A DNA stretch of 64,000 bases from Nocardioides pinisoli. GTDB lineage: Bacteria; Actinomycetota; Actinomycetes; Propionibacteriales; Nocardioidaceae. The DNA lies in NCBI RefSeq assembly GCF_024199985.1, contig NZ_JANARS010000004.1:248001-312000 (forward strand), given 5' to 3'. The notes below the pieces were generated by a model, which saw nothing but the letters and a program-made list of their open reading frames with translations, did no database searches and was not told the DNA's origin. The translations under genes were made by a program, and so were the position numbers. Shown piece by piece: positions 5,052 through 31,295 of the stretch; the first letter of the stretch is position 1, and each line of letters opens with the position of its first letter.

Positions 5052-8000
5052 TGGACGGTCACGCTCCCGGCGCCCCGGGCGGGGCAGATGGCGGTGAACG
5101 GGCAGTCGCGGCAGTGCGGACCCGTCGTGGCGGGGAAGGTCTCGTCGCGGACCAGGTCGGCCGCCCGGGCCAGGCCGGCGCGGAGGGCGACGCGCTCGGG
5201 TCCGGCGTCGGTGTGCGGCGGCTGGGGCTGCACCTTGCCGATGGCGGACTCGTCGTCGATGCCGAGCTGCACCAGCTCGGCGCCGCCGGAGGCGACGGGC
5301 CGCCCGGCCGAGTCGTCGAGGGCGCCGGTGTCGACGGCGTACTGGTAGAGCGCGAGCTGCAGGTTGCCGGCGACGGACGGCCCGCTGGGCGCGTTGCGGG
5401 CGCTCTTGAAGTCGACGACGACCACCCGGCCCGCGTCGTCGATCTCGAGGCGGTCGGCGAAGCCGGTGAGCTGGACCGGGCGGCCGTCGACGTCGACCAC
5501 GCTCTGGAAGCGTTGCTCGGCGCCGAGGAACTCGCGCGGGTTGTCGAGGTGCCAGCGGACGAACCGGGCGACGGCCTTGCGGATCCGGGCGAGCTCGCGC
5601 TGACGCGACCACGGGGTGCGGAACGCGAGCCGGTCCCACACGGCCTCGACCTCGGCCATGAGCGGCTCCTCCTCGGCCGGCAGGTCGCCGACGGCGACGC
5701 GCTCGGCGAGCGCGTGGAGGACCTGGCCGAGGTTGGCCGACTGGTGGACCGCTGACACACCGCCGGCCTCGCGCTCGAAGAACCACTGCGCGGGGCAGAC
5801 CAGGATCGACTCCAGCATGCTCGCCGAGATCGGCACCGGCCGGTCGGGGTCGCGGATCGGCTGGACGGAACGGCTGGCGCTGCGGGTGCCCCACCACGTC
5901 GACGGGTCGGCCGCCGGCACGAGCTGGCGTCCGCCGACCTCCTCGGCGGCCAGCGCGGCGAGCCGGCGGGCGGCTGCCTCGCGCAGCGCCGGCGACGCCG
6001 CCGGGTCGGCCGCGGTGCGGCGCAGCTCGGCGACGAGGCCCCCCAGCGACAGCGGCCGCGGCGGCCGGCCGTCCTGGTGGTCGATGGTGACGCCGAGCTC
6101 CTCGAGGAACCGGGAGGGCTGCTCGCCGTCGTCGTCGGGGGACCGTACGGCGCTCACCACGAGGCGTCGGCGGGCACGGGTGCACGCGACGTAGAACAGC
6201 CTGCGCTCCTCCATCAGCAGCGCCCGGCTGGTCACGGGCGGGACGAGGTCGGGGTGGCCCGAGGCGTCGACGCCGATGCGGTCGGCGCCGAGGAGGGTCG
6301 TCCGGCGGCGCAGGTCGGGCCAGCCCTCCTGCTGCACGTGGGCGACCACGACGAGGTCCCACTCGAGGCCCTTGGAGCGGTGGGCGGTGAGGAGCCGGAC
6401 CGCCGCCCCGCGCACGCCCTGCTCGGCGAGCGTGTCGGCGGGCAGCTGCTGGGCGACGACGCTGGCGAAGAACGCGGCCACGCCGACGTGGTCGCGCTGG
6501 TCGACCGCGCGGGAGGCGAGGTCGAAGAGCGCGACGATCGCGTCGAGGTCGCGGTGGGCCCGGCGGGTGCTCGCGCCCCCGGCGTCGACCTGGCGGCGCA
6601 GCCGCTGGGGCCAGGTGGTGCCCGACCACAGGTGCCAGAGCACGTCCTCGACGCCCGCGCGGTCGGCCAGCATCCGCGCTCCCCCGCGCAGCAGCTCGGC
6701 CAGGGCGCCGGCGCGCTGGACGTCGGGTCCCTCGAGCCCGTCGAGGAAGCCGGGCTGGACGACCGCGAGCCGCAGCAGCTCGCGCGAGGTGCGCCGCACC
6801 GCGGGGTCGGCCACCTCCTTCTCACGCGTGCGGAGGCGGCGGACGAGCGCTCGCAGGTCGGACGCGTCGAGCCCGCCGATCGAGGAGAGCAGAAGCGACT
6901 CGATGCGACCCGGGTCGAGGAAGTCGGGCGAGTCGGGGTCGTCGTTGTCGAGGTTGACGACGGCGTGCAGGCCGTCGAGGAGCGGCACGACCGCGGGATC
7001 GCGCACCAGCGGCAGGTCATCGGACGCGACCTCGACGGGGACACCGGCGGCGGCGAGCGCGCGGCGCAGCGGCGGGATGCTGGTGCGGCCGGAGCGGACG
7101 AGGACCGCCATCCGGTCCCACGCGATGCCGTCCTCGAGGTGGGCGCGGCGCAGCAGGTCGGCGAGCCGCTCGGCCTCGGCGCGCTCGGTGTCGTAGGTGA
7201 CGACCTCGACCCGGCCGTCGCCGTGCGGGCCGGGGACCGCCTCCGGGGAGAGGAACGCCTCGCGGGCCCCGGCGTCGATGCTGCCGGTGAGGGAGAGCCG
7301 GTGGGCCACCCGGCCCGCGGCCAGCAGGATCCGCGGACCGAACCGGCGGGTGCGCTGGAGCACCACCACCGGGGCGGGTGCGCCGCCGGTGGTCGGGAAG
7401 GCGGCCGGGAAGTCGAGGATCCCGCGCACGTCGGCGCCGCGGAAGCCGTAGATGGACTGGTGCGGGTCGCCCACGACGGTGAGGTCGCGCCCGTCGCCGG
7501 CCAGGGCGCGGAGGAGGGCGACCTGGCCCGGGTCGGTGTCCTGGTACTCGTCGACGAAGACGTGCTGCCACCGCGCCCGCAGCTCGTCGCGGTGGGCCTC
7601 GGCCTCGATCACGGCCCGGCGGATGAGGTCGGAGTAGTCGGTGGCGCCGAGGTTGTCGAGGACGGTGAGGTACTGCTCGAGGAAAAGCCCGGCGGCCACC
7701 ATCTCGGGCAGGTCGTGCTCGATGCCGAGGGCCCGCAGCCCGGACGGGTCGAGGCCCTTCTCCCGGGCGCGTGCCAGCACGGCCTGCACCTCCCGCACGA
7801 ACCCCCGTGTGCCGGCGGCGCGGCGCAGCGGCTCGGGCCACACGACCGACTCGGGGTTGTCGCGCAGCAGCTCGCGCAGGACGACGTCGGCCTCGGGCGC
7901 CGACAGCAGGCGGATGGCGCCCTCGTAGAGCTCGGCGGGCGCGTACTTCCGGACCAGGGCGTAGGCGAAGGAGTGGAACGTCGAGCACGACGCCGCCGCG

Positions 8001-17486: not shown

Positions 17487-19487
17487 TCAGATCCGGTCGA
17501 CCTCGGCGGACGTCGCTCCGTCGGCGAGCGAGGCGTAGCCCGGCCCGCGGTCGAAGAACGCGTCGTCGTCCCGGCTCCACGCCGCCCGCCCGGCACGCTC
17601 GGCCTGGGTCGCCGTGGCGTCGAAGCCCAGGTCGCCCGAGTCGGCCGAGCCGGTCAGCACGACGCCGTAGTCACGCAGCGCAGCCTCGGCCGAGACCTTG
17701 CGCCACACGACGTCGCGCACGACGAGCTCGGGGTCGCGGGCCAGCGGGTCGCCCCAGCCGCCGCCGCCCGTCGTACGAATCCGGACGACCTGGCCGGCCT
17801 TGACGACCTCGGCGTCGGCAAGGGCGTCGACCTCGCGCTCGTCGGGGCCGCCCGGGTCGATGACGACCTGGAACGGCGAGCCGGCCTTGCCACCGCGCAC
17901 GCCCCAGCAGGCGAGGATCGAGCGGTCGGCGATGGACATGAAGTGCGCGTCCTTGAGCATCCGGATGTGCTTCTCGTAGCCGAGGCCGCCGCGGTACTCA
18001 CCTGCGCCGCCGGAGTCCTGGGCCAGCCCGAGGCGCTCGACGATGAAGGGGAAGCGCGACTCGGTGAACTCGGTCGGCAGGTTGCGGGAGTCGGGGACGA
18101 CGTGGATGGTGTCCTCGCCGTCGGCGTAGTAGCGCCCGCCCGAGCCGCCACCGAGCACCTCGCGCATGAGGTAGTCGTTGCCGTCGAGGTCCTTGCCGTA
18201 GACGCCGGTGTAGCGGATGGTCTCCTGGTCGGCCGGCATCTTGCCGTCGACGGCCTTGGCCACGACGCCGGCGAGCACGCCGAGCAGCCGCAGGATGACG
18301 AAGGTGCGGGCGTTGGTCGGGCCCGGGTGGATCGGCGTGAGCAGCGTGCCCTTCTCGGGGAAGCGCATCTCGATGAGGGGGACGATGCCTTCGTTGACGT
18401 CGAGCTCCGCCATCCGCTCAGGGGTGTCGGCGAGGTTGCGCAGGATCGGTGCGAGCCACTTCTTGAGGAAGTTGCCGCCGACGTAGTCGCCGCAGTGGTT
18501 GATCGGCCCCTTGGCCTGGGCGCTGGTGCCGGTGAAGTCGATGATCAGCCGCGGTCCGGCCGGGCGACCGTTCTCGGGGTCGGCCGGGGCGTCGCTCACC
18601 TTGGTCAGCGTGATCCGCTGCGTGTGCAGCTGCGGCTCGTCGACGCCGTCGTGCTCGGCGTAGTCCTCCCAGACGTAGGTGCCGTCGGGGATCTTGGACA
18701 GGATCTCGCGCCGGTAGGTCTCGGTGGTCGCGTCGAGGATCGCGTCGAACGACGCCTCGATGGCGTCGCGACCGTAGCGCTCGAACAGCTCGCCCAGGCG
18801 CCGCGCGCCCATCAGGCAGGCCGAGCACTCGGCATCGAGGTCGGCGGCGAGGCTGTCGGGCATCCGCGAGTTGCGGGTCATGATCCGCAGCGCCGACCTG
18901 TTCGGCACGCCCGCGTCCCAGAGCTTGATCGGCGGGACCGCCAGCCCCTCCTCGTACACGGTGGTCGCGTTGCTCGGCATGGAGCCGGGGACCGCGCCGC
19001 CGATGTCGTCGTGGTGGCCGAAGGCCTGGACGAAGGCGACGACCTCACCGTCGTGGAAGACGGGCACGGTGACGCACAGGTCGGGCAGGTGGCCGATGCC
19101 GCCCTCCGACTCGTAGACGTCGTTGTGGAAGAAGACGTCGCCCTCGCGCATCTCCTCGATCGGGTAGTCACGCACGATGGGGTGGACCAGCGCGCTGTAG
19201 GAACGGCCGGTCAGCTTGCGCAGCTGCCTGTCGTGGATGCCGGCGCGGAAGTCGTGCGCGTCGCGGATCATCGGCGAACGGCTGGTGCGACCGATGGCGG
19301 TCTCGACCTCCATCTCGACGCTGGCCAGCGTGCCCTGGACGATCTCGACCAGGATCGGGTCGACCGTCGTGCCCTCGGCCGTGAGGCGGCCGCCGTGCTC
19401 GTACGCCGTCGGCAGGCCGGCCGGGTTGACCGGCTTCGCGGTGACGTACGCCGGGTCCACGGCGCGGGTGCTGACGTCGGTGCTCAT
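17487..19487 (-). CDS. hyuB: Hydantoinase B/oxoprolinase family protein
   Basis: Partner subunit of HyuA in ATP-dependent hydantoinase, oxoprolinase, acetone-carboxylase-like or caprolactamase enzymes. Typical HyuB signatures are RSPMIRDAHDFRAGI, GDVFFHNDVYESEGGIGHLPDL, GHHDDIGG, GGGSGGRYYADG and the C-terminal TTGGGGWGDPL. At 666 residues it is longer than the roughly 570-590 I would expect for plain N-methylhydantoinase B. The extra length includes a C-terminal tail after GGGGWGDP. The ATG start at 19487 overlaps the hyuA stop (ATGA). The substrate is likely a cyclic amide or imide, acting in the cytosol with HyuA; the exact substrate cannot be read from sequence. Confidence 0.9.
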   Translation of the reverse strand: MSTDVSTRAVDPAYVTAKPVNPAGLPTAYEHGGRLTAEGTTVDPILVEIVQGTLASVEMEVETAIGRTSRSPMIRDAHDFRAGIHDRQLRKLTGRSYSALVHPIVRDYPIEEMREGDVFFHNDVYESEGGIGHLPDLCVTVPVFHDGEVVAFVQAFGHHDDIGGAVPGSMPSNATTVYEEGLAVPPIKLWDAGVPNRSALRIMTRNSRMPDSLAADLDAECSACLMGARRLGELFERYGRDAIEASFDAILDATTETYRREILSKIPDGTYVWEDYAEHDGVDEPQLHTQRITLTKVSDAPADPENGRPAGPRLIIDFTGTSAQAKGPINHCGDYVGGNFLKKWLAPILRNLADTPERMAELDVNEGIVPLIEMRFPEKGTLLTPIHPGPTNARTFVILRLLGVLAGVVAKAVDGKMPADQETIRYTGVYGKDLDGNDYLMREVLGGGSGGRYYADGEDTIHVVPDSRNLPTEFTESRFPFIVERLGLAQDSGGAGEYRGGLGYEKHIRMLKDAHFMSIADRSILACWGVRGGKAGSPFQVVIDPGGPDEREVDALADAEVVKAGQVVRIRTTGGGGWGDPLARDPELVVRDVVWRKVSAEAALRDYGVVLTGSADSGDLGFDATATQAERAGRAAWSRDDDAFFDRGPGYASLADGATSAEVDRI

Positions 19488-21571
19488 CGGCCCGACTCCT
19501 TCCGGATCACGAGGTTGGCCCAGTCGTCGACCACGACCTCGAAGCCGGGGTGGACGGGGATGGTCGAGCCGAACTCCTCGACGATGGCCGGGCCGCTGAA
19601 CGTGTCGCCGGCGCCGAGGTCGCCGCGCCAGATCACGGGGGTGTCGACGTAGCCCTGCTCGGCGTCGAAGCACACCTCGCGGCGGCTGCGGACGGCGCGC
19701 TCGCGGGCGTCGCCCTCGGCCTTGTCGAGCGTCGGGATCTCCGGTCGGGTGATCGGGCCGATGCCGGTCACACGGAGGTTGACCCACTCGACCTGCTGGG
19801 TCGCGTCACCGCGGAAGTCGTAGCCGTAGAGCTGGCGGTGCTCGGCATGGAACGTCTCAGCGACGTGGGCGACGTACGCCTCGTCGACCTCGCCCTCGGG
19901 AGCGGCCACGCGGACCTCGTAGGCCTGGCCGACGTAGCGCACGTCGATCGTGCGCTGGAACTGGTGGTCCTCGGGCGCGAAGCCCTCCTTGGCCAGGGCC
20001 GCGCGGGCCCGGTCGGTGAGGTCGTCGAGGACGGCCTGCACGGCCGCGTGGTCGAGCGCCGACTCCTTGGCCACGTGGGTCTGCACGTAGTCGTTCTTGA
20101 CGTCGACGGTCAGCAGCCCGAAGGCGCTCACGTTGCCCGGGTTGGGGGGTACGACGACGCCCGCGAGGTCGAGGATGTCGACGAGCCGGCAGGCCAGCAG
20201 CGAGCCGGAGCCGCCGAAGGTCGTCAGCATGAAGTCACGGACGTCGAGGCCACGCTTCACGCTGACCTGTCGCAGCGCGTTGGCCTGGTTCCACGCCGAG
20301 ATCTCCAGGATGCCGGTGGCGCAGCGCTCGAAGTCGAGGCCGAGCTGTTCGGCGAGGTCGGCGATGCCCGCCCGCGCGGCCTCCACGTCGAGCGGGATCT
20401 CGCCGCCGAGGAGGTGGGGAGGGATCCGGCCGAGGGTGACGTGGGCGTCGGTGATGGTCGGCTGGGTGCCGCCCTTGGCGTAGCAGAGCGGGCCCGGGTC
20501 GGCGCCCGCCGAGTGCGGGCCGACCTTGAGGGTGCCCTCGGGCGACAGCCAGGCAATCGAGCCGCCGCCCGCGCCGACCGTGACGACGTCGATCATCGGG
20601 ATCTTGCTCGGGTAGGCGCCGACCGTGCCCTCGGTGGTGAGGGTCGGCTCGCCGTCGAGGACGACGGACACGTCGGTCGACGTGCCCCCGCCGTCGCAGG
20701 TGAGGATCTTGGGGAAGCCGGCGACCTCCGCGATCAGGGCGGCGCCCAGCGCGCCGGCGGCCGGGCCGGACAGAACGGTGGTGATCGGCTGGTGCACGAC
20801 CTCGTCGGCCGAGAGCACGCCACCGTTGGACTTCATCACGTAGAACGGGATCGCGTTGCCGGTGAAGCTGACCAGGCGCTCGGAGATGTTGGTGACGTAG
20901 CGGCTGACGTTGGGCTTGACGGCCGCGTCGACCAGCGTGGTCATCGAGCGCTCGTACTCCCGGTACTCGCGCAGCACCTCGCTCGAGATCGAGACGACGG
21001 CCTCGGGGTGCTCGCGACGAAGGATCTCGCGCAGCCGCAGCTCGTGGTCGTCGTTGGCGTAGGCGTGCAGCAGGCACACGCCGATCGTGGTGATGCCCTG
21101 GTCCCTGAACCAGCGGGCCGTGGCGACGGCCTGCTCCTCGTCGAAGGGACGGATCTCGGCGCCGGTGAAGTCGAGGCGGCCCCCGACCGTACGGACCCGG
21201 TCGGCCGGGACGATGCGGTCGGGCTTGACCCAGAAGTAGGAGTTGCCGTAGCCGTCGGGCACGGACTGGCGGGCGATCTCGAGCATGAACTCGTAGCCCT
21301 CGGTGGTGATGAAGCCGAGCGCCTCGACCTTGCCCTCGAGCAGCTTGTTGGTCGCCACGGTCGTGCCGTGCGAGACAGCGGTGATGTCGCCGCCGTCGCC
21401 GCCGACGATCCCGAGGATCTTCTCGATGCCGGCGATGAAGCCGTCGGCCGGGTTGCCCGGCGTGCTGGGGGTCTTGGTGGTGACCAGCTCCCCCGAGTCC
21501 TCGTCGAGGGCGACCACGTCGGTGAACGTGCCCCCGGTGTCGATGCCGATCCTGATCCGCCGCGCGCTCAT
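19484..21571 (-). CDS. hyuA: Hydantoinase A/oxoprolinase family protein, ATP-binding subunit
   Basis: The 695-residue protein has the ASKHA-type phosphate motif IGIDTGGTFTDVVAL at the N-terminus. Further family signatures are VSHGTTVATNKLLE, SSEVLREYREYERS, GPAAGALGAALIAE with CDGGGTSTDVSVV, VGAGGGSIAWL and GPHSAGADPGPLCYAKGG. HyuA phosphorylates the amide or carboxyl substrate and HyuB completes ring opening. The start ATG has no strong Shine-Dalgarno. A palindrome shared with arcC lies 71 bp upstream, at 21642-21654. First gene of a probable hyuA-hyuB-nmrA(-lanC-like) operon. It could be N-methylhydantoinase, oxoprolinase or caprolactamase-like; the region places it among N-heterocycle genes. 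Confidence 0.92.
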   Translation of the reverse strand: MSARRIRIGIDTGGTFTDVVALDEDSGELVTTKTPSTPGNPADGFIAGIEKILGIVGGDGGDITAVSHGTTVATNKLLEGKVEALGFITTEGYEFMLEIARQSVPDGYGNSYFWVKPDRIVPADRVRTVGGRLDFTGAEIRPFDEEQAVATARWFRDQGITTIGVCLLHAYANDDHELRLREILRREHPEAVVSISSEVLREYREYERSMTTLVDAAVKPNVSRYVTNISERLVSFTGNAIPFYVMKSNGGVLSADEVVHQPITTVLSGPAAGALGAALIAEVAGFPKILTCDGGGTSTDVSVVLDGEPTLTTEGTVGAYPSKIPMIDVVTVGAGGGSIAWLSPEGTLKVGPHSAGADPGPLCYAKGGTQPTITDAHVTLGRIPPHLLGGEIPLDVEAARAGIADLAEQLGLDFERCATGILEISAWNQANALRQVSVKRGLDVRDFMLTTFGGSGSLLACRLVDILDLAGVVVPPNPGNVSAFGLLTVDVKNDYVQTHVAKESALDHAAVQAVLDDLTDRARAALAKEGFAPEDHQFQRTIDVRYVGQAYEVRVAAPEGEVDEAYVAHVAETFHAEHRQLYGYDFRGDATQQVEWVNLRVTGIGPITRPEIPTLDKAEGDARERAVRSRREVCFDAEQGYVDTPVIWRGDLGAGDTFSGPAIVEEFGSTIPVHPGFEVVVDDWANLVIRKESGR

Positions 21572-21641
21572 GGGGACGATTCAACCGATCCGGCCACCGC
21601 GATGGCCACGGCAAGGTCTGCCGACGGATCGCCGATTGCTC

Positions 21642-21654
21642 GGCAACACCTGCC
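21642..21654. promoter_or_regulatory. Palindrome-like operator candidate upstream of hyuA
   Basis: GGCAACACCTGCC matches the reverse complement of the arcC-upstream palindrome (GGCAACACTTGCC) at 12 of 13 positions. It lies at almost the same distance (71 bp versus 70 bp) from the start codon. Confidence 0.5.
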
Positions 21655-21670
21655 CGGGGTCGGGACAGGC

Positions 21671-21707
21671 GAAGGGCCCTCGACGGTATGAGCGTCAAGG
21701 GCCCTTC
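21671..21707. terminator. Hairpin with GAAGGGCCCT/AGGGCCCTTC arms
   Basis: The perfect 10-bp arms (21671-21680 and 21698-21707) extend by four more pairs after one mismatch, leaving a 7-nt loop. It is about 200 nt after the SARP stop codon, between the SARP and hyuA genes, and probably ends SARP transcription. There is no long U tract, as usual in high-GC actinobacteria. Confidence 0.7.
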
Positions 21708-21908
21708 TGATGAGGATCAGGTCGCCGGAGCGGCCAGGTCCTCGGAGGTGACCGGTCCTGTGATGCTTCCGGTCGATCGCTCCTCCTCCTGGGTCCCAGC
21801 CACCCATCACCTGGTGTCTGCGACGTTCCCCGGCGTACCGGATCGCGTCGTACGGACTCGTCGTCGGAGCCATCCCGCCTCCCCTTGCGGGGCTGCGTAG
21901 GAACAGTT

Positions 21909-24671
21909 CTACGCCCGGGAGGTCCCGGTCCGCAAGGGTCCTTCGGCCCCGGACGCCGGTCCGCCGAGGACCAGGTCGAGGACCTCGTCGAGGGACATCC
22001 GCGCGCCGTCGGCTCTCAGCTCGTCGAACCGGTCCTCCCCCAGCGCGGTCCGGATTCCGGTGACCACCCGCTCGTGCTCCGGCACGTCGCCCGGGTGGCG
22101 CCGTGCCCCCAGGACGCGGAGCGCCTCGTCCGCGGCGCCGACCAGCACCGCGCCCAGCTCCGAGTGCCCCAGACCGTGCTCGGGGCCGGCGAGCTGCGAG
22201 ACCGTCCATGCCGCCATCAGCCGCCGGCCCAGCGTCCGGCACAGCCGGAGCGCGGCGTGGGTGAGCCGGCGGGCTTCGGCGTAGTCGCCCCGGTGGTCGG
22301 CGAGGTAGCTGAGGTTGGCGAGGAACACGCTGACGTACATCTCGTCGTCGAGGTCGGTCGAGATGGCCAGGCCCTCCTCGTACGCCGCCCGGGCCAGGTC
22401 GTCGTGGCCGGCGACGCGCGTGATCTCGCCGCGGATGTTGAGCACCTGCGCGACGAGCGACGGGCTGGCCGCCTCGCGGGCCAGGCGCAGAGCCTCGTCG
22501 TTGACCCGGATCGCGTGCGCATAGCGGTCGGCGGCGCCGACGTAGGTCACCGACGTCACCGCGAGGGCGTACGCGAGCAGGCGCGGCTCCGCCAACGCCC
22601 GGAACATCGCGACCGCGAGCTCCCAGTGCTCCCGCGCCCGCCACTGGCTGTGCGGGAAGGCCAGGAAGCCCGACGCCAGGTGCAGCCGTGCGACCACTGC
22701 AGGGTCGAGGATCGCGGCCTCGGCCAGCGCCTCCTGCGTCCACCGCTGCCCCTCGACCTGGTGTCCCTCCAGGAACCAGTACGCGCCGAGGGCCGCGGCG
22801 ATCCGGGCAGCGAGTGCCGCGTCTCCCCGGCCGACCGCCCACGCATGGGCGGCCCGCACCTCCTGGAGGAGCCCGGTGATGTCGTCGAGCCACCGGTCGG
22901 CCGCGTCGGTCCAGCGTCGCTCGTAGAGGTCGTCGAGGTGATCGGCGACGTAGGTGGCACGTGCGGCCTCTGCGGCGGCCCGCTCCTCGGGGAGCAGGGT
23001 CGCCGCGTGCTCGCGGACGAGCGAGAGCATCCCGAACGCCGGCTCCCCGGTGGCGCCGGCCGACCGCCGGACGAGGCTGTGGTCGACCAGGACGCTCAGC
23101 GGGTCGACCGCGTCGCTCTCCGGCCAGACCGCCTCGACGGCGTCGAGGGGGACGGGACCGCGGAAGACCGAGAGCCTCGCGAAGAGGCGCCGCTCGCGAT
23201 CGCCGAGCAGCTGGAGGCTCCAGTCGATGGTCGACGGGATGGTCTGGTGGCGGTCCGGCAGGTCGCGGGCCGCGACGACGCCGGAGGCCAGGCGGTCGGC
23301 GAGCCGCTCGCGCAGCAGCGGCGCCGAAAGGGTGCGCAGGTGCCCGCCCGCGATCTCGATGGCCAACGGCAGGCCGTCGACGGAGGCGCAGATGGCACCG
23401 ACGGCCTCGAGGTGCTGGGCGAGGTCGAAGTCAGGGTCGACCGCGCGGGCCACCTGGTCGAACAGCGCGACGGCGTCGGCGTGATCGGCACCGGCCGCAG
23501 CCGTGACGGCCAGCGGACGCACCTCGTGGACCTGCTCGCCGCCGAGGCGCAGGCGCGCCCGGCTGGTCACGAGCACACGGACACCGGCGGACCGCTCCAG
23601 GACGCCCGCCACCACGTCGGCGGCCGCCACGACGTGCTCGAAGTTGTCGAGCACCAGCAGCAGCGACTGCCGGTGCAGGGCCTCCGCCAGCACCTGGACC
23701 GCGTCCTGGTCGTCGCCCGCACGTATCCCGAGCTCGCGCACGACGAGTCCGGCGACCTGCCCGGGCTCCGAGACCTTCGTCAGGTCGACGTAGCAGCTGC
23801 GTTGCGCGGTCTCCTGCACGACCCGGTGGGCGACCTCGGCAGCGAGCCGGGTCTTGCCGACCCCACCGACCCCGAGCAGGGTGACGAGCCGTCCGCGGGC
23901 GAGCAGGTCGAGCACGGCGGCCACGTCGGCGTCGCGCCCGACCGTGCGGGTGGACGGTCGGGGCAGCCGCGCCGCGCCGCGGGGCAACGCCTGCCGGCTC
24001 CCCTCGGCCGCGGGCATGGCCTCGATCTCGGCGCGGACGGCGCCGAGCGCCTCGTCGGGCACGGCACCCACCTCGCGCCACAGCTGCTCGACCTGATCGA
24101 GGTGGCGGAGCGCGTGCCCGCGGCGTCCGGCCTCGACGTGCGAGCGCAGCACCCCGATGTGGGCCTCCTCGTCGAGCGGCTCGCTGGCCAGGACGTCCTC
24201 CCACCGGCCGGCGCCGCGCAGCAGGTCGAGGTGCACCGCACGCAGCCGCTCGCGGTCCGCGTGGCTCCACGTCTCGTAGAGGTCGTCGGGAAGCAGGTCC
24301 CCGGCGTAGAGGGCGATCGCGTCTTCGGCCGAGCCCGCCGCCACCACCCGTTCGAAGCGCTCGACGTCGACGGTCACCTCGGCGTCGGGCAGGAGCGAGA
24401 CGACGCCGTCGACCAGCACGACGCCGCGGCCGGTGCCCAGCGACGTACGCGCGCGGTGGGCCGCCTTGTGCAGGCGCGGTGCCGCGCGGTCGAGGAGCAG
24501 GTCGGGCCACAGCAGGTCGACGAGCCGTTCCCGCGGGAGCCGGCGGCCGGGACGGAGGGCGAGGACCTTCACGAGCGCGGTGGCGTCGCGGCGCGTCCAC
24601 GCGGCTGCGTCGATGGGTCGCCCGTCCACGACGACCGAGAACCCACCGAGCAGGGTGATGTCGACGTGCAT
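21909..24671 (-). CDS. SARP/AfsR-type transcriptional regulator with NB-ARC ATPase
   Basis: A 920-residue cytosolic regulator. Residues 1-90 resemble the OmpR-like winged helix of SARPs (ITLLGGFSVVVDGRPID, RRLPRERLVDLLWPD). About 95-235 is the bacterial transcriptional activation domain (YAGDLLPDDLYETW, LASEPLDEEAHIGVLRSH). An NB-ARC ATPase follows, with Walker A LLGVGGVGKTRLA and LLLVLDNFEHV, then a helical TPR-like C-terminus (Ala-rich helices up to LVLGG). This is the AfsR layout that activates secondary metabolism or catabolic genes. The ATG start follows GGGAGG. The divergent gap with the acetyltransferase gene holds an 11-bp tandem repeat (24741-24784) typical of SARP sites, suggesting it regulates itself and/or its neighbour. 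Confidence 0.9.
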   Translation of the reverse strand: MHVDITLLGGFSVVVDGRPIDAAAWTRRDATALVKVLALRPGRRLPRERLVDLLWPDLLLDRAAPRLHKAAHRARTSLGTGRGVVLVDGVVSLLPDAEVTVDVERFERVVAAGSAEDAIALYAGDLLPDDLYETWSHADRERLRAVHLDLLRGAGRWEDVLASEPLDEEAHIGVLRSHVEAGRRGHALRHLDQVEQLWREVGAVPDEALGAVRAEIEAMPAAEGSRQALPRGAARLPRPSTRTVGRDADVAAVLDLLARGRLVTLLGVGGVGKTRLAAEVAHRVVQETAQRSCYVDLTKVSEPGQVAGLVVRELGIRAGDDQDAVQVLAEALHRQSLLLVLDNFEHVVAAADVVAGVLERSAGVRVLVTSRARLRLGGEQVHEVRPLAVTAAAGADHADAVALFDQVARAVDPDFDLAQHLEAVGAICASVDGLPLAIEIAGGHLRTLSAPLLRERLADRLASGVVAARDLPDRHQTIPSTIDWSLQLLGDRERRLFARLSVFRGPVPLDAVEAVWPESDAVDPLSVLVDHSLVRRSAGATGEPAFGMLSLVREHAATLLPEERAAAEAARATYVADHLDDLYERRWTDAADRWLDDITGLLQEVRAAHAWAVGRGDAALAARIAAALGAYWFLEGHQVEGQRWTQEALAEAAILDPAVVARLHLASGFLAFPHSQWRAREHWELAVAMFRALAEPRLLAYALAVTSVTYVGAADRYAHAIRVNDEALRLAREAASPSLVAQVLNIRGEITRVAGHDDLARAAYEEGLAISTDLDDEMYVSVFLANLSYLADHRGDYAEARRLTHAALRLCRTLGRRLMAAWTVSQLAGPEHGLGHSELGAVLVGAADEALRVLGARRHPGDVPEHERVVTGIRTALGEDRFDELRADGARMSLDEVLDLVLGGPASGAEGPLRTGTSRA

Positions 24672-24740
24672 CGGTCCTCCCAGCCAGTGCACGGCGACTG
24701 TACGCCTGCGCGCGCGGGCGACTCGACGACATTTCGCCGG

Positions 24741-24784
24741 GGAAGGACGCGGGAAGGCCGCGGGAAGGTCGCGGGCAGGCGAGC
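24741..24784. promoter_or_regulatory. 11-bp tandem direct repeats, candidate SARP operator
   Basis: GGAAGGACGCG, GGAAGGCCGCG and GGAAGGTCGCG follow each other without gaps at 24741-24773, and a degenerate fourth unit GGCAGGCGAGC ends at 24784. SARPs bind heptamer direct repeats at 11-bp periodicity near -35 regions. The position, between the SARP gene and a divergent gene, fits autoregulation. A TACAGT box for the SARP gene lies at 24697-24702, minus strand. Confidence 0.7.
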
Positions 24785-24828
24785 TGCGGACGGTCGAGAG
24801 GTCCACCACCGGACCGACTGGAGAGACG

Positions 24829-25497
24829 ATGTACTGCCGCACCCCTGCCGAGCCCGTCCGCCACCCGCACCACCCGCACGACCAGCACCGCGCACAGCCC
24901 GTGGCTGCGACGGTGCCTGCCCGCCTCCGTGACGGTGCGACCGTGCACCTGCGGCCGCTGGCACCTGGCGAGGTCGACGTCGTCGAGCAGGTCTTCACGG
25001 GGATGTCGGCGCGCTCGCGCCAGCAGCGCTACCTCGTGCCGATGCCGCGCCTGCCGGGCGGCGCCCGCCGGAGCCTCGCCGCCACCGACAGCGACCGGCA
25101 CGTCGCGTGGGTCGCCCTGCTCGACGGGCGACCGGTCGGGCTGTGCCGTTTCGTGCGCACGGCCCACGACCGGGCCGAGGTGGCCTTCGAGGTCGTCGAC
25201 GCCCAGCAGGGCCGCGGGATCGCGTCGACGCTTGTCGACGCCGTCGCCGCCGTCGCGGACGCGGTCGGCGTCCGCTGGCTGGAGGCGAGCGTCGCCCACG
25301 GCAACCACGCCTCCGTGGCCGTCCTGGCCGGGCTCGGCCTCGAGCTGCGACCCGACGACGGCCTGCTCGTGGGCACAGGCCTGTTGCGCCTGCCCGCCGT
25401 TCCCCGGGTGGACCGGGTCGCCGTGCTGGAGCTGGCCGGTCAGCTCGTGGCGGGACCGACCAGTCGCTCGACGGCGGCCGCGACCTCGAGCAGCTGA
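24829..25497 (+). CDS. GNAT-family N-acetyltransferase
   Basis: This 222-residue protein has a His-rich N-terminus (about residues 11-21) and then a GNAT fold: VHLRPLAPGEVDVVEQVF, VALLDGRPVGLCRFV, VAFEVVDAQQGRGIASTLVDAV (acetyl-CoA motif A, Q-x-x-G-x-G/A-like) and LEASVAHGNHASVAVLAGLGL. The ATG at 24829 is preceded by GGAGAG with 5-nt spacing. The last 58 bp overlap the convergent amidase gene, so its C-terminal tail (after AVLELAGQ) is probably non-conserved. The acetyl acceptor is unknown. It is divergent from the SARP regulator and shares its repeat-containing promoter region, so it is a plausible SARP target. Confidence 0.85.
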   Translation: MYCRTPAEPVRHPHHPHDQHRAQPVAATVPARLRDGATVHLRPLAPGEVDVVEQVFTGMSARSRQQRYLVPMPRLPGGARRSLAATDSDRHVAWVALLDGRPVGLCRFVRTAHDRAEVAFEVVDAQQGRGIASTLVDAVAAVADAVGVRWLEASVAHGNHASVAVLAGLGLELRPDDGLLVGTGLLRLPAVPRVDRVAVLELAGQLVAGPTSRSTAAATSSS

Positions 25498-26843
25498 CGG
25501 TCGGCGCCGTGGCGGGCGACCAGCTGGACGCCGACGGGCAGGCCGTCGGCGGTGCGTCCGGCGGGGAGGGAGATCGCGGGGCACCCGGTGACGGTGATGA
25601 AGTAGGCCGAGCGCATCCAGGCGAGGTAGTCGGGCATCTCCTGGCCGTTGATCGTCTCGGGGAACTCCTGCTCCACCGGGAAGGGCGGCACCTGCGAGGT
25701 CGGCAGCAGCAGCACGTCGTGCTCGCCGAAGAAGAGCCGCATCGTCTCCGAGAGCGAGGTGCGCTGGGTGTAGGCGCGGGCCACGTCGGCACCGGTCAGC
25801 GGCTCGCCCGCGCGGATGTTGGCCTCGAGGGAGGCCTTGAAAGACGTCGGGTGCTCGGCCAGCAGCGGCCCGAGCTTGGCCTGGAAGTGCCAGGCACGCA
25901 GCGTGCGGAACGTGTCGTCGGCCAGGGCGAGGTCGGGGTGGGCCTCGGCCACCGCCGCACCCGCGTCCGAGAGCCGCGCCGCGGTCGCGCGTACGACGTC
26001 CGCGACCTCGTGGTCGACCACCAGCGAGCCACCGAGGTCGACCGACGTCGCGACCCTCAGCCCGGCGAGCGGGGCGGGCGTCAGCGGTGGTGCGAACGAC
26101 GTGCCGGGGTCGCCCAGCGCGAGGGGGGCACGCGGGTCGGGTCCGGCGAGCACCGACAGCAGCAGCGCGAGGTCGCCGACGTTGCGGGCCATCGGACCGC
26201 CGACCGACGTGCTCTCCCACTGGTTGTAGTGCGGCCACTCCGGCACCCGGCCCAGCGAGGGCCGCATGCCGACGACGCCGCAGAACGACGCCGGGTTGCG
26301 CAGCGAGCCGCCCATGTCGGAGCCGTCGGCGAGCGGCACCATGCCCGACGCCAGGGCGCACGCCGCTCCCCCGCTCGACCCGCCCGCCGAGCGCGAAGGG
26401 TCGACCGGGTTGCGGGTGACGCCGAAGACGGTGTTGAACGTGTGCGACCCGGCCGCGAACTCCGGGACGTTGGTCTTGCCGACGAAGACCGCGCCGGCCG
26501 CGCGGACGCGCTCGACCAGCAGGTCGTCGTGGTCGGCGACGGCGTCGGCGAAGATCGGCGAGCCGTAGGTCGTCCGCCAGCCCTTCAGCGCGTGGGTGTC
26601 CTTCACCGCGAAGGGCAGCCCGTGGAGCGGGCCGATCACCTCGCCCGAGGCCTGCGCCTGATCGGCGACGGCGGCCCAGGCGCGGGCGCGCTCGGCGTCG
26701 AGCGAGACGATCGCGTTGAGCTCGGGGTTGCGCTCCTCGATCCGGTCGAGGTGCAGCTCGAGCAGCTCGGTCGCCGAGACCTCGCCCGAGCGGAGGGCGG
26801 CGGCCTGGGCCCGCGCGGTCGAGTCGACCGTCAGGTCGCTCAC
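25440..26843 (-). CDS. Amidase-signature-family amidohydrolase
   Basis: The 467-residue cytosolic amidase has the Ser-cisSer-Lys triad: Lys81 (LPFAVKDTHALKG), cis-Ser157 (RSAGGSSGGAA) and nucleophile Ser180 (GSDMGGSLRNPASF). The length fits GatA-like amidases of broad substrate type. It is the last gene of the permease-Mo-hydroxylase operon, with its ATG overlapping the coxG-like stop. Within that context it could deamidate or hydrolyse a ring-opened ureido or amide intermediate (ureidomalonase-like, for example). This is inference; GatCAB is excluded because no gatB or gatC is present. Its 3' end overlaps the opposite-strand acetyltransferase gene by 58 bp. Confidence 0.92.
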   Translation of the reverse strand: MSDLTVDSTARAQAAALRSGEVSATELLELHLDRIEERNPELNAIVSLDAERARAWAAVADQAQASGEVIGPLHGLPFAVKDTHALKGWRTTYGSPIFADAVADHDDLLVERVRAAGAVFVGKTNVPEFAAGSHTFNTVFGVTRNPVDPSRSAGGSSGGAACALASGMVPLADGSDMGGSLRNPASFCGVVGMRPSLGRVPEWPHYNQWESTSVGGPMARNVGDLALLLSVLAGPDPRAPLALGDPGTSFAPPLTPAPLAGLRVATSVDLGGSLVVDHEVADVVRATAARLSDAGAAVAEAHPDLALADDTFRTLRAWHFQAKLGPLLAEHPTSFKASLEANIRAGEPLTGADVARAYTQRTSLSETMRLFFGEHDVLLLPTSQVPPFPVEQEFPETINGQEMPDYLAWMRSAYFITVTGCPAISLPAGRTADGLPVGVQLVARHGADRQLLEVAAAVERLVGPATS

Positions 26844-27484
26844 CGGCGGCGTCCGAAGATCCCGCCGACCACGACGCCGAGGACGACCAGCCCGGCACCG
26901 ACGGCGACGCCGGTGAGGAACCCCTGGCGCGAGGCGGCCGCGGGCGCGGGCGCGGGTGCGGTGAAGACCTGCCCGGTGCTGACCGCGCCGGTCGGCGTCG
27001 GCACCGCTGCACCTGCGGCGGCAGGAGCGGCCTCGACGGGCGCCCCTCCACCCGCGATGGCCGCGTCGACGTTGCCGAAGAACTCCCCCGCCATCCGGCG
27101 CGACACGGAGGTGAGCATCCGCTGGCCGACGCCGCCGATCATCCCGCCGACGACCGCATCGGCGTCGTAGGACACCCGGGTCGTGGAGCCCTCGGGGATG
27201 AACCGCACGTTGACGGTGGCGCCGATCGTGCCGGGGGCTCCGGCACCGTCGAGCTTCATCACCAGGGACTCGTGCTCGACGAGGTCGGTCAGCTCGCAGG
27301 ACCCGGCGTAGGTGCCCTTGATCGAGGCGACGCCCGCGGTGACGGTCATCGCGTAGGCGTTGTCACCGGTCGCCTCCAGCCGCTCGCAGCCCGGGATGGT
27401 GCGCACGAGCACCGCCGGGTCGAGCAGCGCTCCCCACGCCTGCTCGACGGGCGCCGCCAGCGTATTCTCTCCGGTGAACTTCAT
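26840..27484 (-). CDS. coxG: CoxG-like SRPBCC protein with C-terminal membrane anchor
   Basis: Residues 1-150 form a CoxG-type SRPBCC domain (MKFTGENTLAAPVEQAW, PGCERLEATGD, VNVRFIPEGSTTRVSYDADAVVGGMIGGVGQRM). An Ala/Pro-rich linker follows (about 155-190), and a C-terminal transmembrane segment ends in GGIFGRRR (about 192-214). CoxG recruits CO dehydrogenase to the membrane or carries quinone in Afipia and mycobacteria; a similar electron-acceptor role for this hydroxylase is inferred. The ATG lies 48 nt after the coxL stop, and that gap contains the 35-bp repeat. Its stop overlaps the amidase start. Confidence 0.88.
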   Translation of the reverse strand: MKFTGENTLAAPVEQAWGALLDPAVLVRTIPGCERLEATGDNAYAMTVTAGVASIKGTYAGSCELTDLVEHESLVMKLDGAGAPGTIGATVNVRFIPEGSTTRVSYDADAVVGGMIGGVGQRMLTSVSRRMAGEFFGNVDAAIAGGGAPVEAAPAAAGAAVPTPTGAVSTGQVFTAPAPAPAAASRQGFLTGVAVGAGLVVLGVVVGGIFGRRR

Positions 27485-27503
27485 AGATGGCTCCTAGTGG
27501 CTC

Positions 27504-27538
27504 GGTTGCGTGACGGGCGCTGCGCGCCCTCCTCAACC
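27504..27538 (-). repeat. 35-bp hairpin repeat, copy 2, contains the coxL-like stop codon
   Basis: Minus-strand reading starts GGTTGAGGAGGGCGC and ends GTCACGCAACC. The inner stem is GGGCGC/GCGCCC. The TGA of GGTTGAGG is the stop codon of the large subunit gene. The arrangement matches the arcC copy at 9484-9518. Confidence 0.75.
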
Positions 27539-29950
27539 AGCGGTGGTGGGGGTGGTCGTGGGGTGGGGTTCGTCGGTGTGCGCCAGGCGCAGCTCGAACA
27601 GCTCCGACGGCGAGATGGGCATCGAGGTGATCGGGAAGCCCTCTGCGTCCTCGATGGCCGCGGCGAAGACGGCGGCGGACGGGATCACGCCCGCCTCGCC
27701 GGCGCCCTTGATGCCGAGCGGGTTGAGCGGTGAGGGCGTCTCGAGGTGGTCGATGTCGATCGACGTCGGGACCTCGGTGGCGTACGGCATCAGGAAGTCC
27801 ATGAACGACGCGTTGAGCAGCTGGCCGGACTCGTCGTAGGCCATCCGCTCGTAGAGCGCGCCGCCCACGCCCTGCGCGACGCCGCCGTGGATCTGCCCCT
27901 CGACGATCATCGGGTTGATCAGGTGCCCGCAGTCGTGCACGACGGCGTACTTGAGGATCCTGATCTCCGCGGTGTCGGGGTCGGTCTCGACGATCACGGC
28001 GTGCATGCCGTTGGCGAAGGTCGAGCGCGGCGGGGAGTAGAAGTCCTTGCCCTCCAGGCCCGGCTCGTCGTCCTCGGCGACCGGCGGCTTGCCGGGGTCG
28101 CCGACCGAGAACTGGGTGGCGGCCTTGGAGGCCTCGTCGAAGGCGTAGCGCAGCGGGTTGGAGAGGACGGCGATCGTGCCGAGGTCGATCGACGCGTCCG
28201 TGCCGCGGACCGACACGACGCCGTCCGCGATCTCGAGGTCGTCCTCGGACGCCTCCAGCGCCTCGGCGGCAATCCGCAGCGCCTTCTCCTTCGCCCGCAG
28301 CGCGGCGAGGTGGATCGCCGACCCGCTCATCACGGCCGCGCGCGAGGCGAAGGTGCCGACGGCGTAGGGCATCTTGCGGGTGTCGCCCGTGGTGATCTCG
28401 ACGTCCTCGAACCGCACCCCGAGGGTGTCGGCGACGATCTGCGCGAACGCGGTCTGGTGGCCCTGCCCCTGGGTGGTCAGGCCCGTCGCGACCTTGACCT
28501 TGCCGGAGGTCTCGACGTGCACGTGGGCCCCCTCGTAGGGGCCGACGCCGGTGCCCTCGACGTAGCAGGCGAGGCCGATGCCGACCCGGCGGCCCTGAGC
28601 CGCCATCTCCGCGCGGAAGTCCTCGAACTCGTCCCAGCCGACGAGCGCCTTGAGCTTGGCCAGCGACGCCGGGTAGTCGCCGGAGTCGTAGGTCAGCTCG
28701 CGCCCGTCCTGGAAGACCAGGCCGTGCTCGTAGGGGAACTCGTCGGGCTGGATGAAGTTGGTGGAGCGGACCTCGGTGCGGTCCTTGCCGAGGTAGGCCG
28801 CGATCGCGTCCATCGTGCGCTCCATGACGAAGCAGCCCTGCGGCCGGCCCGCGCCGCGATAGGGCGTGACGATGACGGTGTTGGTGTAGAGCGACTCGAA
28901 GGCGACGCGGTAGTTCTGCGGCTTGTAGGGGCCGAGCAGCTGGGTCGAGGTGATGATCGGGACGATGAGGCCGTAGGGCGTGTACGCGCCGTGGTCGTGC
29001 CAGAACTCGACGTTGAGCCCGAGCACCCGGCCGTCGTCGTCGAAGCCGACCTCGACGTGGTGCTGCTGGGCGCGCTCGTGCGCCGAGGAGATGAAGTGCT
29101 CGCGCCGGTCCTCGGTGAACTTGACCGGCTTCCCCAGCGTCATCGCCGCCAGCGGGACGAGCAGCTCCTCGGGCCACGGGTGGTTGATCTTCACGCCGAA
29201 GCCGCCACCGACGTCGGGGGTGACGACGTCGACCTTGGCGAGGTCGAGGCCGAGCTTGGCGGCGACGCAGCCCCGGACACCCGTCGACGTCTGGGTCGAG
29301 GACCACACCGTCAGGCGGGACGTGTCGGGGTCCCACCGGGCCACGGTGCCGCGGCCCTCCATCGGCGTACAGGCGGAGCGCTCGACGTCGAGCTCGAGCG
29401 TCAGCGTGTGGGGCGCGCGGGCGATCGCGGCCCGCGCGTCGCCGTTCTCCTGCTCCATCCGCGCGCCGACGTTGTCCGGGACGTCGTCGTGCACGGCGGA
29501 GGTCGCGGCTCGCGCGGCGGCGATCCCGACGACCGGCGTGAGCTGCTCGTAGGCGACGCGGATCCGCGAGACGGCGTCCTCGGCGACGTAGCGGTCGACG
29601 GCGACGACGAAGGCGATGGCCTCGCCGACGTAGTTGACCTCGTCCTTGGCCAGGGCGTACTGCGTGCGGCCGTGGGTGAGGGCCGGGTGCGGGATCAGCA
29701 GCGGCAGCGGCTCGGCCATCGCGCCGGCGAGGTCGTCGTAGGTCCACACGGCCACCACGCCCTCGACGTCGAGCACGTCGGAGACGTCGATGTCGACGAT
29801 GCGGGCGTGGGCGTGGGGCGAGCGCAGCACCGCGGAGTGCAGCAGGCGCGGGTCGTCGGTCAGCAGGTCGTCGACGTAGCGACCCTGGCCGCGCAGGAAG
29901 CGCTGGTCCTCCACGCGGGGCACCTTGGCGCCGAACATCTTGGTGGTCAC
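27533..29950 (-). CDS. Molybdenum hydroxylase large subunit (CoxL/XdhA family, form II)
   Basis: An 805-residue molybdopterin-cytosine-dinucleotide subunit. Motifs include RVEDQRFLRGQGRYVDD at the N-terminus, VGEAIAFVVA, DVGGGFGVKINHPWPEE, active-site loop PYRGAGRPQG (residues 363-372), TQGQGHQTAF, and KGAGEAGV with the probable catalytic Glu752. True CO dehydrogenase form I has AYRCSFR with the Cu-binding Cys; here AYRGAGR-type means form II, so CO is probably not the substrate. With a nucleobase permease in the same operon, a purine or pyrimidine hydroxylase is plausible (inference). The GTG start overlaps the small-subunit stop; ATG four codons later is an alternative. The stop lies inside a 35-bp repeat. 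Confidence 0.93.
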   Translation of the reverse strand: MTTKMFGAKVPRVEDQRFLRGQGRYVDDLLTDDPRLLHSAVLRSPHAHARIVDIDVSDVLDVEGVVAVWTYDDLAGAMAEPLPLLIPHPALTHGRTQYALAKDEVNYVGEAIAFVVAVDRYVAEDAVSRIRVAYEQLTPVVGIAAARAATSAVHDDVPDNVGARMEQENGDARAAIARAPHTLTLELDVERSACTPMEGRGTVARWDPDTSRLTVWSSTQTSTGVRGCVAAKLGLDLAKVDVVTPDVGGGFGVKINHPWPEELLVPLAAMTLGKPVKFTEDRREHFISSAHERAQQHHVEVGFDDDGRVLGLNVEFWHDHGAYTPYGLIVPIITSTQLLGPYKPQNYRVAFESLYTNTVIVTPYRGAGRPQGCFVMERTMDAIAAYLGKDRTEVRSTNFIQPDEFPYEHGLVFQDGRELTYDSGDYPASLAKLKALVGWDEFEDFRAEMAAQGRRVGIGLACYVEGTGVGPYEGAHVHVETSGKVKVATGLTTQGQGHQTAFAQIVADTLGVRFEDVEITTGDTRKMPYAVGTFASRAAVMSGSAIHLAALRAKEKALRIAAEALEASEDDLEIADGVVSVRGTDASIDLGTIAVLSNPLRYAFDEASKAATQFSVGDPGKPPVAEDDEPGLEGKDFYSPPRSTFANGMHAVIVETDPDTAEIRILKYAVVHDCGHLINPMIVEGQIHGGVAQGVGGALYERMAYDESGQLLNASFMDFLMPYATEVPTSIDIDHLETPSPLNPLGIKGAGEAGVIPSAAVFAAAIEDAEGFPITSMPISPSELFELRLAHTDEPHPTTTPTTAG

Positions 29951-30444
29951 GCGTCGCTCCGCTCGTGCTCGATCTCGGCAGCGCGGAGCACGGACTTCAC
30001 GATGTTCTGGTAGCCGGTGCAGCGGCAGAGGTTGCCGGCGATCATCTCGCGCGCCTCGTCCTCGGTCGGGTCGGGCGTCTCGCGGAGGCCGGCGGTGATG
30101 GTGGTCAGGAAGCCCGGCGTGCAGAAGCCGCACTGCAGGCCGTGGCAGTCGGAGAACGCCTGCTGGACGGGCGAGAGCGAGCCGTCGTCCTCGGTGAGCC
30201 CCTCGACGGTGGTGATCTCGGCGTCCACCGCCGAGACGGCCAGCATCAGGCACGAGCGCATCGGCGCGCCGTCGACCAGCACCGTGCAGGCGCCGCACAC
30301 GCCGTGCTCGCAGCCGACGTGCGTGCCGGTCAGGCCGCAGTCGTGACGAAGGGCGTCGGACAGGAGCCGTCGGGCGGGCACCTGCACCTCGTGGACGGAC
30401 CCGTTGACGTGCAGGCGTACGTCGTGGAGCTGTTCGGTGGTCAC
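29947..30444 (-). CDS. Molybdenum hydroxylase 2Fe-2S small subunit (CoxS family)
   Basis: The 165-residue electron-transfer subunit holds two [2Fe-2S] clusters. The plant-ferredoxin-type site is Cys45, Cys50, Cys53 and Cys65 (GCEHGVCGACTV, SCLML). The second site is Cys105, Cys108, Cys140 and Cys142 (GLQCGFCTPG, NLCRCTGYQNI). All eight ligands are present. GTG start and stop overlap the neighbours in the medium-small-large order typical of CoxMSL operons. It passes electrons from the molybdenum centre to the FAD subunit. Confidence 0.96.
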   Translation of the reverse strand: MTTEQLHDVRLHVNGSVHEVQVPARRLLSDALRHDCGLTGTHVGCEHGVCGACTVLVDGAPMRSCLMLAVSAVDAEITTVEGLTEDDGSLSPVQQAFSDCHGLQCGFCTPGFLTTITAGLRETPDPTEDEAREMIAGNLCRCTGYQNIVKSVLRAAEIEHERSDA

Positions 30445-31295
30445 GGCTGGGTCGCCTCTCCTGCCCGCGAGCGGGCGTGGTCGGTCGCGGCCGCCAGGAC
30501 GCGGGGCGCCAGCACCTTGACGAGGTGGGCGCGGTAGGCGGCGCTGGCATGGATGTCGTCGGCCGGGTCGAGCTCGGCCAGGGCCTTCGCGGCGGGGTCG
30601 CCGAGCGCGTGGGTCACGTCGACGACGACGGGGACGTCGCTGACCGACACGAAGCCCAGCGACGCGCGGGTGACGGCGTCGCCGTCGGTCTCGACGTGCG
30701 CGGCCACGCCCACGAGGGCGTAGTCGCCGTGGCGGCGCGCGATCTCCTGGAACGCCACGCCCGCATCGGGTGCGAGCCCCGGGAAGAACGCCTCGACGGC
30801 GACCTCGTCGTGGGCCAGGGTCGACTCGAGCGGGCCGGCGAACAGCTCCGCCGCCGGGATCGTACGACGACCCCGCACCGACGCGACGTCGACCGATCCG
30901 TCCAGCAGCCGCAGCACCATCGGCATCTCGGCAGCGGCGTCGGCGTGCACGATCGAGCCGACGGTCGTGCCCCGGTTGCGGATCGTCGGGTGCGCGACGT
31001 GGCGCAGCGCCATGCCCAGGAGCGGCTGGGCCCGCTCGGCCTCGGACGAGGCGAGCACCTCGGCGTGCCGGGCGAGGGCGCCCACCCTGACCCCGTCCTC
31101 GGCCACGCGGACGTGGCCGAGGTCGGGCAGGGCGTTGATGTCGATGAGCATCGACGGTGCGGCCAGCCGCATGTTGAGGAGCGGGACGAGCGACTGGCCA
31201 CCGGCCAGCACCTTCGCCCCCTGCTCCCCCGCGAGCGCCGCGAGGGCTTCCTCGAGGGAGGACGGTCGCAGGTAGGCGAAGGGTGCGGGCTTCAT
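30441..31295 (-). CDS. Molybdenum hydroxylase FAD-binding medium subunit (CoxM family)
   Basis: The 284-residue subunit has the FAD motifs KVLAGGQSLVPLLNMRL (AGGQS, about residues 32-36) and TIRNRGTTVGSIVHADAAAE (TxGGxx-type second motif, here TVGSIVH), plus the C-terminal CO-dehydrogenase-flavoprotein domain. It takes electrons from the Fe-S subunit and passes them to an external acceptor. ATG start at 31295 overlaps the permease stop (ATGA), which binds the enzyme to nucleobase uptake genetically. No coxD/E/F or other maturation genes are in the operon. Confidence 0.95.
   Translation of the reverse strand: MKPAPFAYLRPSSLEEALAALAGEQGAKVLAGGQSLVPLLNMRLAAPSMLIDINALPDLGHVRVAEDGVRVGALARHAEVLASSEAERAQPLLGMALRHVAHPTIRNRGTTVGSIVHADAAAEMPMVLRLLDGSVDVASVRGRRTIPAAELFAGPLESTLAHDEVAVEAFFPGLAPDAGVAFQEIARRHGDYALVGVAAHVETDGDAVTRASLGFVSVSDVPVVVDVTHALGDPAAKALAELDPADDIHASAAYRAHLVKVLAPRVLAAATDHARSRAGEATQP

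Follow-up and report, generated by a model that had tools for sequence, protein, structure and literature searches.

A candidate SARP-type promoter with 11-bp SGGMAGG repeats upstream of an acetyltransferase gene in Nocardioides

In promoters controlled by SARP regulators, direct repeats have been described at a spacing of 11 or 22 bp; 8 bp separate the 3' repeat from the −10 element, which reads CACTGT in afsS (both according to the accessible part of PMC10936776). The AfsR/afs box system of afsS in Streptomyces coelicolor resembles the locus investigated here in its regulator, a large SARP composed of winged helix, BTA and NB-ARC/NOD domains, as well as in its promoter, in which 11-bp direct repeats are located at a fixed distance from a weak −10 element of the xAnnnT type. 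The two systems differ in the repeat sequence (CGTT(T/C)ATCGNN for AfsR in the accessible part of PMC10972967; SGGMAGG here), in the number of units (two in afsS; here three or four in 12 and two in five of the 17 linked arrays defined below) and in their context, i.e. a catabolic/redox-like Nocardioides locus in contrast to afsS. The operators of the SARP-LAL regulators PimR, SanG and PolR consist of CGGCAAG heptamers with 4-nt spacers; the main PimR operator comprises three repeats, the middle one of which (CGGCAGG) fits SGGMAGG exactly, but does not overlap the −35 region and serves a PAS-LuxR gene of a polyene cluster (as far as described in the available part of PMC5930380). EmbR of Mycobacterium tuberculosis shares the OmpR-type winged helix and BTA fold, but carries a C-terminal FHA domain (PMC10936776, same part) in contrast to the NB-ARC domain of the regulator studied here, and the PapR2 repeat, GTCAGSS in the available part of PMC7040171, is unlike SGGMAGG. 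Neither published SARP direct repeats in Nocardioides nor GGAAGG repeats of the SARP family were found in the literature searched, which was thin on subscription journals.

Within the 64,000 nucleotides of Nocardioides pinisoli DNA analysed here (hereafter the window), positions 24741-24794 very probably constitute, as judged from comparative evidence, an activator-dependent SARP promoter of a GNAT acetyltransferase gene, which would be bound by the SARP encoded at 21909-24671. The repeats with SGGMAGG are a new member and a new motif of the SARP-type operator, a kind that is already known.

The SARP gene and the adjacent repeat array

The gene at 21909..24671 (minus strand) encodes an AfsR-like large SARP of 920 amino acids with winged helix and BTA, NB-ARC and a long C-terminal part. 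The NB-ARC domain following the SARP domain was clearly recognized by Pfam (45.7 bits, cut-off 23.5) and the BTAD scored just below its cut-off (21.4 versus 22.1 bits); neither a winged-helix nor a TPR family was among the Pfam matches at E <= 0.001. The AlphaFold model of the first 225 residues, which were modelled together with those of eight relatives, was confident (mean pLDDT 91.8) and places an OmpR-type winged helix followed by BTA, the N-terminal architecture of the SARP family, at this end of the protein. An AfsR-like fold is predicted for the DNA-binding part: the best Foldseek matches of the model were AfsR in the transcription complex (8k60, 8hvr) and EmbR, and a sequence profile of the N-terminus retrieved AfsR (6e-8) and EmbR (4e-6). 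Upstream of the gene, on the minus strand, GGGAGG (24676..24681), the likely ribosome-binding site, was invariant in the alignment, and the −10-like TACAGT (24697..24702; TAGAGT in five of six relatives) belongs to a largely conserved promoter block at 24697..24735 that lacks GGMAGG repeats. This block (GAAATGxCGTCGA ... GTAxAGTCG) was shared by the window with most of the six relatives; it was weaker in genome G162 and partly present in N. currus.

Between the SARP gene and its divergent neighbour, the sequence-only reading had recognized three contiguous 11-bp repeats plus a fourth, and re-reading of the sequence proved these coordinates exact. The distal operator repeats at 24741..24773 (plus strand; GGAAGGNCGCG) comprise GGAAGGACGCG (24741-24751), GGAAGGCCGCG (24752-24762) and GGAAGGTCGCG (24763-24773), and are followed on the same strand by the promoter-proximal unit GGCAGGCGAGC (24774-24784). 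The latter had been called degenerate; it is indeed a variant (GGCAGG), but rather probably a working repeat, since GGCAGG recurs in the arrays of three related genomes (G045, G030 and G021).

Predicted promoter geometry and operator consensus

The predicted −10 element of the GNAT gene, GACGGT (xAnnnT; 24789-24794, plus strand), is positioned 9 nt after the GGCAGG of the fourth unit, so that this unit is the one proximal to the promoter in the window. The transcription start would lie approximately at 24800..24802, about 6-8 nt downstream as estimated from the −10 position, followed by GGAGAG (24820..24825) as the likely ribosome-binding site and by the gene itself at 24829..25497 (all plus strand; 222 amino acids; Pfam Acetyltransf_3, 48.2 bits). 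No hit resulted from scanning 24500-25000 for sigma-70 promoters and terminators.

The offset was analysed in 17 arrays linked to GNAT or its homologues, a set chosen for GNAT-linked loci: one array in the window, those of both sides in G045, G158, G030, G162, G108, G021 and G120, and one each in G246 and G129. Several arrays were left out. Those of G017, G055, G013 and G227 have no xAnnnT at the offset (G017 carries a four-copy GGAAGG array at 11-bp spacing, L180/L083, at 6464-6502 of L180). The arrays of G039 and G196 (CGAAGG/GGAAGG/GGAAGG; L078 and L084, near 1500) do have GAACAT or GAACGT at this place, but are unlinked to SARP or GNAT; no coding ORF was found around them by the frame filter. 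Also left out were a one-mismatch pair at 3796 of L177, whose hexamer at the offset (GGAGAT) does not fit, and the array of G129:C156, which was found afterwards by the promoter pattern itself. In each of the 17 linked arrays the final GGMAGG was followed at exactly 9 nt by xAnnnT, while the remaining offsets between 0 and 29 gave no case (per-site chance rate about 0.02), although the relatedness of the genomes makes 17 of 17 overstate independence. The commonest form was CAACCT. We infer that this element is the −10. The 9 nt after GGMAGG equal 8 nt after GGMAGGN in each of the 17 arrays, in line with the distance of about 8 bp in SARP-type promoters, and the period of 11 bp is one of their two repeat spacings (11 or 22 bp). 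Conventionally, a −10 element is placed at −12 to −7. On this numbering GGMAGG occupies −27 to −22; in AfsR, the downstream repeat spans −29 to −19, and its first 8 bp, which are contacted, include these positions.

Over the 47 units the core reads GG (47/47), A (43) or C (4), A (47), G (47) and G (42); the preceding base is G in 23 and C in 19 units (together 42 of 47). The heptamer GGAAGGN, which the sequence-only reading had proposed to define the specificity of this SARP, has to be amended in two respects: the core is GG(A/C)AGG with G or C before it, hence SGGMAGG, and conservation does not extend to the seventh base. Its assignment of the repeats to the SARP type is supported by the comparison, in so far as the 11-bp period, the −10-like element 9 nt away in all 17 arrays and the co-occurrence with a SARP gene all point to it.

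Predicted target genes and locus layout in relatives

A GNAT match of some kind was present in 214 of 215 genus genomes, but at 58-66% identity in only six besides that of the window (G030, G108, G158, G162, G045 and G021; next rank 48%), and all six have repeats at the same 11-bp spacing upstream of the GNAT unit. This comparative evidence favours the proposed control of the adjacent acetyltransferase by the array. The six relatives possess two back-to-back arrays and the window one; the gap between the two is 18-19 bp in five genomes and 8 bp in G045, counting its GGCAGG unit. Downstream of the first array come a small ORF and GNAT; the second is directed at MaoC, behind which OsmC, two flavin monooxygenases and finally the SARP gene are arranged (Pfam assignments); in G162, where MaoC was not found, the second array faces OsmC directly. 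The small ORF, at 10010-10126 of L170, encodes 39 amino acids in G045 and starts with MHH; a similar MHH... frame precedes OsmC in G129 (L193, from 1569).

In six genomes the MaoC start codon is located 6-7 nt after the predicted −10 element (L171 5525, plus strand; L174 9136, minus strand; L170 9872; L172 4644; L175 9632; L176 12296), a distance which suggests that the MaoC mRNA is probably leaderless.

OsmC, the two flavin monooxygenases and the small ORF separate SARP and GNAT in all six relatives, and MaoC in five of these (block at 5535-9378 of L174; equivalents in L170-L173 and L175). The window has none of these five genes, so that GNAT and SARP are adjacent there. A search within the window gave no match to MaoC or the second monooxygenase at E <= 1e-3; in the window's genome OsmC had no match, a weak result as that search had no positive control, and the best match of the FAD-monooxygenase was 29%. 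The absence of the block presumably reflects a loss. Genes as those flanking the pair in the window (amidase/CoxG/xanthine-dehydrogenase-like and hydantoinase genes) surround the block in five of the six relatives. The window's flanking genes were not found in the 14 kb covered around the N. currus locus. According to Pfam, the SARP-GNAT pair of the window is embedded in a hydantoinase A/B and amidase gene cluster (17487-30550); CoxG-like and xanthine-dehydrogenase-like are the names of what we take to be genes further along this cluster.

According to the proposed mechanism, SARP molecules would occupy the four 11-bp direct repeats next to one another through their N-terminal winged-helix/BTA domains and hold RNA polymerase on the weak −10 element GACGGT (24789-24794), for which no −35 element is evident, with the result that the GNAT gene at 24829 would be transcribed. 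In the relatives, one of two back-to-back promoters would drive the small-ORF-GNAT unit and its counterpart the (MaoC-)OsmC-monooxygenase operon, the end of which adjoins the SARP gene; of these two halves the second is absent from the window, where the GNAT half alone remains.

Distribution of the array, alternative readings and divergence

An orthologue of the SARP at E <= 1e-100 was present in nine of 215 genus genomes. The three-copy pattern (<=1 mismatch) was found in eight of these nine compared with six of the 206 others (Fisher p = 2.7e-10, a value that likewise overstates independence among related genomes); in the remaining one, G129, a SARP-like gene is accompanied by an array of two copies. 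The six of 206 served as background, because GGAAGG is identical when read backwards and the reversed-pattern control was consequently void for the three-copy searches of the window's genome and of the genus. G129 and G120 each contain two SARP-like genes, either of which might be the binder there.

The promoter pattern (two repeats, 9 nt and xAnnnT) gave 17 matches in the nine SARP genomes (about 41 Mb) versus two for its reversed control; 15 of the 17 are the arrays behind the pattern and therefore return by construction, so that only two further sites were obtained. The one, on another contig of G129, precedes a small ORF, OsmC and monooxygenase, with MaoC divergent; the same target genes were thus recovered away from GNAT. 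The other (G000, C2:51275) falls within an ORF of 1010 or more amino acids and is probably due to chance. A spacing control with 6 nt in place of 9 was confounded, as eight of its nine matches were within-array pairs read with the next repeat and one lay elsewhere. A wide regulon in the window's 4.53-Mb genome was rejected: the three-copy pattern occurred there once without mismatch, at 24741-24784, and nine times with <=3 mismatches, two of these being the same array, and no further real-looking site was found. The suggested genome search for spaced GGAAGG repeats hence gave no other copies as far as it extended; this does not speak against the SARP as binder, because almost all sites found in the relatives likewise belong to this single regulon.

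From the place of the array in the divergent region, the sequence-only reading had also proposed autoregulation, i.e. the array as the SARP's operator for its own gene, possibly besides GNAT. The array does lie in this region, starting 38 bp upstream of the predicted −10 element of the SARP gene. A SARP-like gene of G129 (L178, 8780-8897, gene start at 8897) is likewise found directly beside an outward-pointing array, in a different gene context, and in the six relatives, where the SARP gene is located downstream of the array-driven operon, read-through could feed back on it; in the window, this route is absent. Autoregulation was rejected as the main reading, because the array and its −10 element face away from the SARP gene and the latter has its own, largely conserved promoter block (24697-24735) devoid of repeats. 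No array was present at the −35/−10 region of the SARP gene itself: a two-copy scan of the window and the six relatives' loci revealed no repeats at the SARP start save the outward array of the window, and the arrays of the relatives are more than 3 kb away from it. SARP sites, moreover, usually overlap the −35 region of the driven gene in the accessible parts of PMC10972967 and PMC10936776, with PimR as an exception (PMC5930380, available part). An autoregulatory operator is in consequence considered unlikely, and the array most likely switches on GNAT rather than the SARP's own gene.

The binding of this SARP to the array is one that we infer, and a regulator encoded elsewhere might occupy the repeats next to a SARP gene that is merely a conserved neighbour; in G246 (L177) a three-copy array at the proper distance from the −10 occurs, although no SARP orthologue reaches E <= 1e-100, and two of the six background arrays (G039, G196) show xAnnnT at the SARP offset. 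Such a foreign regulator is nonetheless quite improbable, since array and SARP gene tend to occur together over the 215 genomes, the 11-bp direct repeats and the −10 are arranged as in SARP promoters, and the regulon genes on another contig of G129 retain the site. That the array is a functionless, GC-rich tandem repeat arisen by chance might be suggested by Tandem Repeats Finder, which gave other arrays of the window (e.g. 5946-6035 and 52347-52396) comparable or higher scores; the repeat score by itself is therefore not exceptional. The array at 24741-24784 is, however, distinguished by being intergenic and conserved and by a period of exactly 11 bp. With <=3 mismatches the three-copy pattern matched this array alone in the window (two overlapping matches), and 100 dinucleotide shuffles of the window produced 0.05 matches on average and one at most, none of them reaching two; sequence, spacing, orientation and −10 offset are kept in the six relatives, so that the chance reading is scarcely credible and effectively refuted by conservation.

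For the predicted SARP-driven GNAT promoter, the comparison yields an operator consensus of a Nocardioides large-SARP clade, SGGMAGG every 11 bp and 9 nt before xAnnnT, tied to a defined set of target genes and not to an obvious antibiotic cluster. A more far-reaching reading is tentative and about as readily doubted as believed: a whole 920-aa NB-ARC activator of the AfsR type might serve essentially one bidirectional promoter, with two back-to-back sites of which one would start a probably leaderless mRNA, at a single locus that resembles detoxification or catabolism and has no antibiotic cluster evident around it, while the regulon in the lineage of the window may have shrunk to one acetyltransferase and its SARP-GNAT pair may be diverging far faster than the neighbouring genes. 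As the relatives have two divergent sites and the window one, the locus offers a natural experiment on the local evolution of activator and operator with most of the regulon missing.

Between the window and five relatives, the flanking hydantoinase A and amidase share 90-96% identity, compared with 67-68% for the SARP and about 62-67% for GNAT. The relatives' SARPs are 85-98% identical to each other, N. currus standing apart at 74-75%, and the end branch of the window exceeds all others both within the seven close SARPs and in the GNAT tree. The sequences are compatible with either of two histories: the SARP-GNAT pair may have evolved fast after loss of the block, or it may have been exchanged. 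In the SARP search beyond the genus, the best 80 of at least 594 matching stretches comprised one of 67% identity (L090, N. currus), the value also obtained for the SARP of G021, and 79 of 27-39%.
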